Below are positions 42,246 through 64,000 of a DNA stretch of 64,000 nt, piece by piece. Source of the stretch: Chloroflexota bacterium (lineage in GTDB: Bacteria; Chloroflexota; Anaerolineae; Anaerolineales; UBA4823); contig JAJUJL010000013.1 of the NCBI GenBank assembly GCA_029265355.1, forward strand, positions 62,001 through 126,000. The letters run 5' to 3'. The first letter of the stretch is position 1, and each line of letters begins with the position of its first letter. The notes beneath the pieces are model-generated. The model was not told where the DNA came from and did not search any database. It saw nothing but the letters and a program-made list of their open reading frames with translations. The translations under genes and the position numbers were made by a program.

Positions 42246-42320
42246 CGGGGCGTAGCTCAGTCCGGCTAGAGCGCACGGTTCGGGTCCGTGAGGCCCGCGG
42301 TTCAAATCCGCGCGCCCCGA
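42246..42320 (+). tRNA. tRNA-Pro, anticodon CGG
   Basis: Complete cloverleaf: acceptor CGGGGCG (42246-42252) with CGCCCCG (42313-42319), D arm GCTC/GAGC, anticodon stem CACGG/CCGTG with loop TTCGGGT (anticodon CGG), T arm CGCGG-TTCAAAT-CCGCG, discriminator A. CCA is not encoded. The integrase gene starts 175 bp downstream, so its 3' half is the likely attB/attL core. Confidence 0.96.
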
Positions 42321-42325
42321 CCTTC

Positions 42326-42495: not shown

Positions 42496-43425
42496 ATGAA
42501 AACCAACCTGACACTCGATCAAGCCATCGACGGCTACACCCTCTACGCCCAGGCCCGCGGCCTATCCCCACACACCATCGCCGACTACACCAACACATAT
42601 CGAAAATTTCGGTACTTCCTTCAAGGAAACCCCCTCCTATCCGAAATCACCCCTGAGCACGTCCAACGATTCCTAACGTCCCACCCCGGCCTCACCCAAA
42701 AAACCCTCCTCAACTACCACACCGGCCTCGCCGCCCTCTGGACCTGGGCCATCAAATACGGATACACCGCTGACCACCCCCTCCACCAGGTAGAACGCCC
42801 TCGCAAAGAAAAGCGCGCCATCATCCCCTACTCAGAGTCTGACCTGCGCGCCATGATCGCCGCTCTCGGCAAATCAAAAACCTACGCCCGTCCGGGCAAA
42901 CGCCCCTCCAGCCACAGCCTCCCTCACGCCGAGCGCAACCGCGCCATCCTGCTCATCCTGCTCGACACTGGCCTGCGCGCCTCCGAGCTTTGTAACGCTC
43001 GCATCCACCACCTCGACCTGCGCAATCGCCGCCTGCGCGTCTTCGGCAAAGGCGCCAAAGAACGCACTCTCCCCTACTCCCACAACACCGGCTCCGCCCT
43101 CTGGCGCTACCTTACCACCCGTCCGGATGATCCCGCCAACGCCCCTCTCATCACCACCGGCGAACACCAACCCCTCACCCGCGACCACCTCTACAACACC
43201 ATTACCTCCATCGCCCAGCGCGCCGGCGTCCACCATGCCGACGTTCACCGCTTTCGCCACACCTTCGCCATCAATTACCTCCGCAACGGCGGCGACGCCT
43301 ACACCCTCCAGATCCTGCTTGGTCATACCAGCATGGATATGGTCCGCACCTACATCCAAATCGCCCAATCTGACATCGAAGCCCGCCACCTCAAAGCCTC
43401 ACCCGTCGCCAACTGGAACCTATAA
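42496..43425 (+). CDS. int: tyrosine recombinase (phage integrase)
   Basis: 309 residues, XerC-like. An N-terminal SAM-like core-binding domain (YTLYAQARGLSPHTIADY) and a catalytic domain with R161 (TGLRASEL), H251-xx-R254-H255 (HRFRHTFA), H277 (LLGHTSM) and the nucleophile Y286 (MVRTYIQIA). All residues are intact. The gene is C-rich at third positions, unlike the host genes to its left. It converges on the SGNH gene with a 2-bp gap. Confidence 0.95.
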   Translation: MKTNLTLDQAIDGYTLYAQARGLSPHTIADYTNTYRKFRYFLQGNPLLSEITPEHVQRFLTSHPGLTQKTLLNYHTGLAALWTWAIKYGYTADHPLHQVERPRKEKRAIIPYSESDLRAMIAALGKSKTYARPGKRPSSHSLPHAERNRAILLILLDTGLRASELCNARIHHLDLRNRRLRVFGKGAKERTLPYSHNTGSALWRYLTTRPDDPANAPLITTGEHQPLTRDHLYNTITSIAQRAGVHHADVHRFRHTFAINYLRNGGDAYTLQILLGHTSMDMVRTYIQIAQSDIEARHLKASPVANWNL

Positions 43426-62902: not shown

Positions 62903-63011
62903 ACACGGCCTGATCATTGCTGACCAGGCCGTGTATCCAGCGTTTCACGTCCTACCCAAAATAAAACGGCTCGCCAGGTCAACCCAGCGAGCCGTGTATC
63001 ATCGTTTCACG
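62903..63011 (-). promoter_or_regulatory. duplicated terminator-like leader of the capsid operon
   Basis: Two hairpins lie in tandem on the transcript between the late promoter and the capsid start. The first (62966-62974 with 62987-62995) has a 9-bp GC-rich stem followed by TTTTATTTT. The second (62903-62912 with 62925-62934) has a 10-bp stem followed by TGCGATTTT. Each is preceded by the same module CGTGAAACG..TG..ATACACGG. Short leader reading frames begin in both modules. Looks like an attenuator. Confidence 0.6.
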
Positions 63012-63021
63012 CCTCCTCCCT

Positions 63022-63050
63022 AATGTAGCACACTACGTACAAAATGTCAA
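63022..63050 (-). promoter_or_regulatory. late operon promoter
   Basis: TTGACA (63045-63050), 17 bp, TACATT (63022-63027) on the minus strand. Start expected near 63015, ahead of the leader hairpins. Confidence 0.7.
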
Positions 63051-63156: not shown

Positions 63157-63185
63157 AAAAGCCCCACCCGACAGCCAGGTGGGGC
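63157..63185 (-). terminator. intrinsic terminator of the tRNA-like RNA
   Basis: GCCCCACC (63178-63185 read on the minus strand) and GGTGGGGC (63161-63168) form an 8-bp stem, then TTTT. It begins 2 bases after the discriminator base of the tRNA-like RNA. Confidence 0.8.
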
Positions 63186-63187
63186 AG

Positions 63188-63272
63188 TGGAGCTGCCCGG
63201 AATCGAACCGGGGTATGTGTGCAAAACATCAGCCCTAAGCTAACATCTTGCACACCGTTCCCTGTCAGCCCC
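63188..63272 (-). ncRNA. 85-nt tRNA-like RNA with alanine-type acceptor and no D-stem
   Basis: The acceptor stem GGGGCTG (63272-63266) pairs with CAGCTCC (63195-63189), with a G3-U70 wobble, the alanine identity element. Discriminator A at 63188; CCA is not encoded. The T arm CCCGG-TTCGATT-CCGGG is standard. In place of D and anticodon arms there is a 10-base single strand and one continuous 16-bp stem (63240-63255 with 63217-63232), capped by the 7-base loop CTTAGGG. Four of its 16 pairs are G-U on this strand and would be A-C on the other, so selection is for the minus-strand RNA. The layout resembles the tRNA-like domain of tmRNA without its mRNA part. It may be processed from the transcript of the gene upstream. 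Confidence 0.72.
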
Positions 63273-63275
63273 AAT

Positions 63276-63319
63276 TCAGCGCCTCAGTGCCTCAGTGCCC
63301 TCACCTCTTCAGTGATCTT
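63276..63319 (+). repeat. dispersed repeat family C, copy 3
   Basis: CAGCGCCTCAGTGCCTCAGTG, then CCCTCACCTCTTCAGTG. It overlaps the last codons of the small gene at 63301-63537. Confidence 0.6.
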
Positions 63320-63537
63320 AGCACCAACACCTTATGCCCCTTCCCATCCGCCAGCTTCAACAGCTCGAACTCATCCATGTTCGCAGATGCGAACGCCGCC
63401 ATCCACTTGCGCGCCGTCGCAAGACTCTTACACGGCAACTGTCTCATCACATCTGTCACCAACACATCATCCGGCTGCACACTCGTCCGCCTGGCAAACT
63501 CCCGAATCCTCCCAACCACCTCCGCCTTATCCATCAT
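63301..63537 (-). CDS. small phage protein, helix-turn-helix-like
   Basis: 78 residues: VVGRIREFARRTSVQPDDVL, VTDVMRQLPCKSLATARKWM form three helices like a small DNA-binding domain. The family is not recognised. It overlaps the metallophosphatase gene by 4 bases; its stop is 28 bp before the tRNA-like RNA. Confidence 0.6.
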   Translation of the reverse strand: MMDKAEVVGRIREFARRTSVQPDDVLVTDVMRQLPCKSLATARKWMAAFASANMDEFELLKLADGKGHKVLVLRSLKR

Positions 63538-64000
63538 ACCTCCACATACTTCCGCAAATCGATCTTATCCAACACCGGCTCCACCATCCCCACCCGTCCA
63601 TCCACGCACTCAACCAGCACCATACCGCACGTCACCTCACTGATAGACCTGGTAGCCTTGCGCGCATGCCCCCCTGGGATGCACAGCGCCGGCGTGATCA
63701 CCAGCCTGCTCTCCGATCCATTCTCGCATACCACCTCGTTGATATACGTGTGAAAATGCGACCGGATCACCAGATCGGGCGGCTTCTTCATCGCCATCAA
63801 ATTCTGAATCATCACATCTCGCAGGTAAAAGCGCGCAATATTTCCCCGCAGCCAACTGCGGCTTCCCGGATGCGGCCCGTGATGCGCCAGGTCGATACTC
63901 ACCCCGGCCACATTTAGCAAATAATGATAAGCGCTCCCGATCGTCCTATCTGGCCAGGCTTCCCGCAGCATATCTGCCAGCAGCACACTCGCCGACCCCT
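63534..64000 (-). CDS. metallophosphatase-like phage protein, 5' end outside the window
   Basis: The frame is open to the right edge without a stop, so at least 155 residues are the C-terminal part of a longer protein. Motifs VSIDLAHHGPHPGSR and VIRSHFHTYI give the two His-rich metal sites of calcineurin-like phosphoesterases. Phage enzymes of this kind act on nucleotides or DNA ends. The upstream half with the first Asp motifs would be beyond 64000. Confidence 0.75.
   Translation of the reverse strand, partial: GSASVLLADMLREAWPDRTIGSAYHYLLNVAGVSIDLAHHGPHPGSRSWLRGNIARFYLRDVMIQNLMAMKKPPDLVIRSHFHTYINEVVCENGSESRLVITPALCIPGGHARKATRSISEVTCGMVLVECVDGRVGMVEPVLDKIDLRKYVEV

Follow-up and report, generated by a model that had tools for sequence, protein, structure and literature searches.

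The closest described counterparts of the RNA reported here are tmRNAs without a message. The G3–U70 base pair and A73 are identity elements for alanyl-tRNA synthetase (AlaRS), and the message-free tmRNA of jakobids has a permuted origin. Mycobacteriophage DS6A is described as carrying a "TLD only" tmRNA, with little beyond the tRNA-like domain (PMC4131195; PMC11915505). A DS6A-like molecule is reported to inhibit tmRNA strongly, whether or not it can be charged, perhaps by titration of SmpB (Mao et al. 2009, cited in PMC4131195). Message-free tmRNAs are also described from mitochondria and plastids, and a helpful role on incomplete mRNAs has been suggested for the mitochondrial forms (PMC11915505). 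The 2025 tmRNA database holds nine entries classed as "standard, no CDS" among 97,179, and its phage tmRNAs, whatever their form, number 79 (PMC11915505). With the DS6A and organellar molecules already in print, the claim of the initial annotation that the RNA studied here is of a new kind is not borne out.

The window (the whole 64,000-nucleotide stretch of DNA that was analyzed) encodes a small RNA, here called a mini-tmRNA, whose elements are given in Table 1. Judged from its sequence, this RNA is the tRNA-like domain of a prophage tmRNA in which the tag message and pseudoknots are replaced by one hairpin. The acceptor stem comprises 7 bp including G3–U70, and the long stem holds 16 uninterrupted pairs, 4 of which are wobbles; this helix occupies the place of H2, the pseudoknots, and the tag message of tmRNA. 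The structure as first described (acceptor, G3–U70, linker, 16-bp helix, T arm, and terminator) was verified in every part on the minus strand. The minus-strand fold has a predicted energy of −44.3 kcal/mol (z −5.79), and none of 200 shuffled sequences folds equally well. At the same site, the plus-strand fold has an energy of −26.4 kcal/mol (z −1.74), and 11 of 200 shuffles are equally good.

TABLE 1. Features of the mini-tmRNA and the surrounding prophage (positions in the window)
Feature	Position	Strand	Remarks
mini-tmRNA (tRNA-like domain only)	63188..63272	−	85 nt, G1 to discriminator A73; CCA unencoded
Acceptor stem 5′ strand GGGGCTG	63266..63272	−	
Acceptor stem 3′ strand CAGCTCC, U70 facing G3	63189..63195	−	A73 = 63188
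D-loop-like linker ACAGGGAACG, 10 nt, without D-stem	63256..63265	−	
16-bp helix, tmRNA H2 position	63217..63255	−	7-nt loop CTTAGGG = 63233-63239
Linker ATAC, 4 nt	63213..63216	−	
T arm CCCGG-TTCGATT-CCGGG	63196..63212	−	Pairing perfect
Terminator-like stem-loop, then TTTT	63161..63185	−	Directly 3′ of mini-tmRNA
tRNA-Pro(cgg), presumed attachment site	42246..42322	+	
Tyrosine integrase, left end of prophage	42496..43425	+	Pfam/PHROGs profile matches
ORF, 78 aa, immediately upstream of mini-tmRNA	63301..63537	−	
Promoter-like TTGACA-17-TACATT	63022..63050	−	Between terminator and capsid gene; conserved in L380
Head maturation protease / major capsid protein, 892 aa	60239..62917	−	Next gene downstream of mini-tmRNA

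The Rfam tmRNA model (RF00023) matches the window RNA with 40.6 bits (E 1.6e-14), second in the genome to the real tmRNA. This score is under the gathering cut-off of 47 bits; the relative L009 reaches 49 bits with the same model. The host's own tmRNA is full-length, with 397 nt against the 85 nt of the window RNA. At the position of the D-loop-like linker the host tmRNA reads ACAGGCTTCGACGGG, and the window linker likewise starts with ACAGG. The 4-nt linker before the T stem is ATAC in the window RNA, GGAC in the host tmRNA, and GAAC in a homologue, L380, described below. The window RNA departs from the D-loop motif GG.TTCGA and reads CAGGGAACGG: GG is present and TTCGA is absent, with GGGAAC instead. 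The tag reading frame and pseudoknots of tmRNA are also absent, and the inner part of the RNA is paired. The earlier proposal of an alanine acceptor domain of the tmRNA type that has no tag frame is supported. At curated cut-offs, the only Rfam entry within the window is tRNA-Pro.

A search with the capsid protein yielded 18 related viral loci. In one of these, L380, the capsid is 82% identical to that of the window over the 185 residues present, and a 75-nt RNA lies at the same gene position. The two RNAs are identical in their first 15 nt and have 10-nt and 4-nt linkers of equal length, and one T-stem pair has changed from C–G to G–C. Among the 11 shared pairs of the long stem, nine are changed on both sides, one is changed on one side, and one is unchanged. 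The initial annotation had staked its case on compensatory changes in homologues of this stem, and such changes are what L380 displays. Selection for the minus-strand RNA, claimed at the outset, is supported. The terminator of L380 differs in sequence from that of the window, and the downstream promoter is conserved. ARAGORN labels the L380 RNA as tRNA-Gly, a label for which its structure gives no support.

The 15 other capsid relatives with at least 1.6 kb upstream of the capsid gene gave no RNA match at E ≤ 1; two more, L363 and L376, have no sequence ahead of the capsid gene and fall outside the judgeable set. Because just two of the 17 judgeable capsid relatives, window included, carry a mini-tmRNA, the RNA is regarded as accessory. 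L363 and L380 share a sample, and the former may represent the other half of the latter.

The D arm and the 5-bp anticodon arm of canonical tRNA are both absent from the window RNA, and ARAGORN predicts neither a tRNA nor a tmRNA at this site. An ordinary tRNA is rejected on these grounds, and the early judgment that this is not a usual tRNA stands. The loop, 7 nt long with U33, might instead suggest an unusual CUA-reading tRNA (anticodon UAG) whose anticodon stem is extended. This reading is contradicted by the missing D arm, the alanine identity, and the silence of ARAGORN in the window, and the loop is unconserved, being TCACCAG in L380 versus CTTAGGG in the window. We find such a tRNA barely conceivable, and the "anticodon" noted in the loop is unsupported.

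The window RNA lies inside a prophage, with the integrase after tRNA-Pro and phage genes filling the rest of the assembled contig. The gene order is tail, capsid, Mu-F-like, terminase, methylase, ParB, and AAA-ATPase, and then the contig ends. The mini-tmRNA sits at the end of the head/packaging gene run, ahead of the terminator-like site. Searches of Pfam and PHROGs gave no match for the 78-aa ORF. The assembled part revealed no second copy of tRNA-Pro, and the right attachment site is therefore unseen.

Several other elements of this region were recorded. A short repeat (ACTGAGGC-like) at window positions 63275-63320, just upstream of the mini-tmRNA, matches many places on contig C9 and one on contig C46, both belonging to this genome. 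The capsid gene leader (62905-63005, minus strand) contains two hairpins in tandem, both preceded by a copy of the repeat GTGAAACGnTG..ACACGG. The first hairpin is terminator-like and lies 3′ of the promoter, and the arrangement, possibly an attenuator, is conserved in L380. A glycosyl hydrolase core domain (PF11790; 56420-57331, minus strand) occurs within the structural region of the prophage. Two genes upstream of the mini-tmRNA is a 277-aa protein (63534-64000 and L361:35-868) for which Pfam gave no match; it starts near IFSDMHSG, which, we presume, recalls metallophosphoesterases.

The setting in a prophage raises the question of an attachment-site copy, or of a decayed host tmRNA gene fragment left by integration. 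The mycobacteriophage TClif reportedly uses the tmRNA attB (PMC10865867), and tmRNA-3′-end-like stretches occur in TClif (a BLAST match) and, beside an integrase, in Mycobacterium phage Shandong1. The integrase of the window, however, is 20 kb from the mini-tmRNA and sits beside tRNA-Pro, and comparison with L380 shows intact, covarying acceptor strands (both of them) and an intact, covarying long stem. Moreover, the acceptor and T-stem sequences are unlike those of the host tmRNA, and so the window RNA is not an integration-site copy of host ssrA. An attP copy of ssrA is rejected because the host ssrA 3′ end differs and the integrase is at tRNA-Pro, and we consider an origin of this kind extremely improbable.

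The window RNA has many relatives in viral contigs. Pattern scans of IMG/VR for short acceptor domains returned at least 120 stretches plus 43 stretches, with more than 100 distinct relatives among the matches listed. The patterns left positions 5–68 and A73 free. Among the matches listed, 5–68 can pair in 101 of the 105 distinct sequences shorter than 100 nt and in 34 of the 35 of at least 100 nt, and A73 is present in all 105 and all 35. A pairable 5–68, a full T stem, and silence of ARAGORN in a short window were found together in 128 of these 140 distinct sequences among the matches listed. ARAGORN calls in the short windows overlapped six of the 140 (among the matches listed), and every call was a tRNA. 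The D-loop TTCGA-type motif went undetected by a coarse regular expression in 29 of 73 clusters among the matches listed, a figure that is an upper bound because some missed rows hold close variants.

Gene contexts of the family vary, and the L018 RNA, for example, lies between terminase and portal genes. The commonest neighboring PHROG accounts for 4 of 64 upstream and 4 of 58 downstream genes among the matches listed, and no linkage to one neighbor gene was seen in this PHROGs survey of 64 upstream and 58 downstream genes. A tRNA is within 3 kb for 28 of the 128 distinct RNAs among the matches listed.

For covariation analysis, 40 RNAs of near-canonical length and form were picked from the 73 clusters, with the window RNA excluded. 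Covariation in this alignment is strong, with a score of 0.494 compared with 0.142 in shuffles; slid controls do not exceed 0.145. All eight pairs of the inner helix show changes on both sides, and 68.9% of the cells of this helix are paired in the plain MAFFT alignment. A count of the pairs that show any double change is less telling: it is 16 versus 14.4 in shuffles, and 46 of 500 shuffles reach 16. A covariance model built from these 40 IMG/VR phage RNAs (R1; window RNA left out) matches the held-out window RNA with 51 bits (E 5.7e-9) and pairing intact. This match and the Rfam tmRNA match (E 1.6e-14) together exclude chance.

Of 63 RNAs, 38 have a stop triplet within the 8 nt that immediately precede the apical hairpin, compared with 21.2 (sd 3.5) in shuffled sequences; the hairpin was located by a rough script, and none of 2000 shuffles gave as high a count. 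The loop of L380, the closest homologue of the window RNA, has no stop triplet, and the triplet atop the inner helix could be an internal-loop motif, not a stop codon. The motif GTAA(A/G)RCC..GG(A/G)A tops the inner helix of canonical members, for example at L046:1927-2005.

R1 finds nothing else at E 0.001 in the window's own genome. The model is imperfectly specific, as tRNA-Ala genes in other genomes score up to 47 bits. When it was run on 400 genomes of the host phylum, 14 of them matched at E ≤ 1e-5: the window's own, 10 tRNA-Ala, 2 full tmRNAs, and L381, at which ARAGORN is silent. No second mini-tmRNA was recognized in these 400 genomes with R1 and strict filters. A pattern scan of named genomes gave at least 118 stretches (110 distinct among the matches listed, most with actinobacterial titles), and position 5–68 is pairable in 18 of the 110 versus 101 of 105 when this pattern was applied to viral contigs, again among the matches listed. 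The named-genome sequences resemble the 3′ part of full tmRNA. Because of the few 5–68 pairs and this appearance, the scan was not used for distribution, save for three loci from Poribacteria and Acidobacteria (L184, L225, and L257), to which R1 gives 54-57 bits.

Isolated phages also carry the RNA. BLAST searches of isolates used the window's 171-base stretch and three single RNAs as queries, and three records covered at least 80% of the query, all from one single-RNA query. A mini-tmRNA scoring 52.8 to 75.3 bits with R1 is found in the Streptomyces phages LuckySocke, GiJojo, Shaeky, pSt2308, and Tomas, where it stands amid tRNA genes. None of the five records annotates it as RNA, and in GiJojo a hypothetical ORF overlaps it. 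G3–U70 is present in all five and pair 4–69 is changed in three; the LuckySocke and GiJojo RNAs are identical. BLAST matches were also obtained to Alone3, Naboo, and BRock. Among the weaker BLAST matches, RpAliso, S-CAM1, and FBPa45 were rejected as members (28 to 35 bits with R1), as were Shandong1 (17 bits) and Dardanus (no R1 match). The unannotated tmRNA-3′-end-like stretch beside the tyrosine integrase of Shandong1 (L399) fits attP use of ssrA, a use reported for some mycobacteriophages (PMC10865867).

The tmRNA model was also applied to 45 phage records and the host. At E 0.001, RF00023 has some match in all 46, and 37 exceed the cut-off. In 34 of the 45 phage records, the cut-off is exceeded by a 73-133 nt match, assigned to the mini RNAs by size; a full-length tmRNA exceeds it in the host, L061's record, and Tomas, and L028's record has both kinds. 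The Tomas mini RNA is found by R1 and unmatched by RF00023. Mini-tmRNA and full-length tmRNA thus occur together in three phage records, L028, L061, and Tomas (L402, L405), and tag sequences could be read in the full-length tmRNAs of L028's record and Tomas. SmpB (PF01668) is present in the host and was found in none of the 45 phage records, which comprise five complete named genomes and IMG/VR records that may be fragments.

To assess alanine identity, we used an IMG/VR scan blind to the acceptor, in which only the D-loop motif, the GGAC linker, and the T arm were specified. It returned at least 120 stretches, 92 of them distinct among the matches listed. A full 7-bp acceptor is present in 89 of the 92, and G1–C72, G2–C71, G3–U70, G7–C66, and A73 are found in 89 of these 89, while the pair types number five at 4–69, six at 5–68, and four at 6–67 (all among the matches listed). 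When these sequences are clustered at 85% identity, G3–U70 is present in 57 of 57 clusters among the matches listed. The search for the 5′ acceptor strand scored G–U lower than Watson–Crick pairs, and the G3–U70 result was therefore not favored by the search. L425 is a contig near-identical to L409 minus two bases in the 3′ acceptor strand, and is a broken copy or a sequencing error. L454 and L506 lack an acceptor in the vicinity of the D-loop motif and appear to have matched by chance.

Scans with an altered 3–70 pair recovered 19 stretches with G3–C70 (15 distinct, 6 called tRNA) and 43 with A3–U70 (36 distinct, 24 called tRNA). The maximum R1 score over all 62 of these loci is 43.8 bits. 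On 94 loci from the G3–U70 patterns, 78 of 96 matches score at least 50 bits, although many of these loci are training members of R1 and the model itself was built from G3–U70 sequences. One exception is an L020-like 90-nt group with C70, comprising six loci and two distinct sequences (L301, L302, L304, L306, L308, and L316). The remaining non-tRNA matches, taken as groups, add seven distinct sequences with C70 and 12 with A3–U70. L020 itself keeps G3–U70 while its 90-nt relatives have G3–C70, a natural test of the loss of alanine identity.

The invariance of G3–U70 and A73 amid covarying pairs at 4–69, 5–68, and 6–67 argues that charging is probably used, and alanine charging appears to be selected in the TTCGA-type family. 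The window subtype has the acceptor marks of that family, yet a different D-loop. A simpler use of alanine identity would be a sponge for AlaRS or EF-Tu, or a donor of alanine for a nonribosomal reaction. This accounts for the conserved identity, but a plain tRNA-Ala would suffice, and the tmRNA-type linker, the missing D-stem, and the H2 position are left unexplained; we judge it very improbable. In both the window and L380, the last ORF precedes the RNA and a terminator-like site follows it, an arrangement also expected if the element formed the folded 3′ terminus of the packaging mRNA, as a tRNA-like cap or an RNase P site that fixes where the mRNA ends and how stable it is, with charging incidental. 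Such a cis role leaves the invariant G3–U70 and A73 unexplained and does not fit the Streptomyces phage copies amid tRNA genes or the L018 copy between terminase and portal. It seems improbable.

We lean, if only slightly, toward a mechanism in which the prophage mini-tmRNA, once charged, competes with host tmRNA and so blocks or diverts trans-translation. RNase P would excise the RNA and CCA would then be added, host AlaRS would charge it with alanine, and host SmpB and EF-Tu would bind it. No SmpB was found in the 45 phage records; binding of host SmpB by the window subtype may be weaker because its D-loop has no TTCGA. The charged RNA would reach stalled ribosomes instead of host tmRNA. Because it has no message it could not tag the chain, and trans-translation would be blocked or diverted during late gene expression, so that phage proteins and mRNAs would escape tagging and decay. 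This is plausible and has a precedent in the inhibition reported for a DS6A-like molecule (PMC4131195; PMC11915505). Against it, a few relatives have G3–C70 and the RNA is accessory among capsid relatives.

A pure block sits oddly with the three carriers that also have a full-length tmRNA. Their coexistence fits a separate job, for instance tagless rescue, in which the charged mini-tmRNA and SmpB would enter the A site and the chain would move onto alanine and be freed, untagged, by another factor. Ribosomes would then be recycled without loss of protein, much as suggested for message-free mitochondrial tmRNAs (PMC11915505). G3–U70 and A73 in 89 of 89 sequences (among the matches listed) amid covarying pairs likewise suggest that charging matters. 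The cited test, however, gave inhibition and not rescue (PMC4131195), and the peptide-release step is without a known candidate. On this evidence we regard tagless rescue, and the gain it would bring, as unlikely.

The manner of action is a further question. Because inhibition is reportedly independent of charging (PMC4131195), the conserved alanine identity exceeds what an SmpB sponge needs. It is possible, albeit doubtful, that in many lineages an alanine-charged, message-free phage tmRNA acts actively at stalled ribosomes, by tagless rescue or by capturing the ribosome, and is not a passive SmpB sponge. If this were true, control of trans-translation would be a widespread phage strategy overlooked by gene callers. 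The presence of mini-tmRNAs in many phages suggests that phage interference with ribosome rescue is common. Uncharged forms inhibit, as cited in PMC4131195, yet charging looks selected in nature, and this tension is worth testing. Conserved alanine identity turns the loose idea of SmpB titration into a testable question: Is charging needed, and is rescue blocked or replaced?

No description of a phage-wide mini-tmRNA family was found among the top matches of literature searches, which covered PMC and few subscription papers. Within that scope, the breadth of the family, the conservation of alanine identity, the named isolates, and the present subtype, which combines an uninterrupted helix with the lack of TTCGA, are new. 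The window RNA resembles canonical tmRNA (ssrA, RF00023) in its alanine acceptor with G3–U70 and A73, its T arm, its D-loop-like linker without a D-stem, its helix at the H2 position, and its 4-nt linker before the T stem. It differs in having neither tag frame nor pseudoknots, in its length of 85 nt, and in its score below the cut-off. The mitochondrial and plastid message-free tmRNAs (PMC11915505) have likewise lost the message part and retained the acceptor domain, but they are organellar, whereas here one continuous gene is found in phages. The full-length and two-piece phage tmRNAs (Melnitz, PMC9004378; Tomas) are phage-encoded and have the same type of acceptor domain; unlike the window RNA they possess an mRNA part, and Tomas has a tagged tmRNA plus a mini one. 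The window RNA is a phage gene limited to the tRNA-like domain of tmRNA, as in the DS6A kind. Compared by description, both are phage-encoded, nearly bare tRNA-like domains without a tag frame; the passages cited on DS6A name one phage, whereas here more than 100 distinct relatives are found among the matches listed and their alanine identity is measured.
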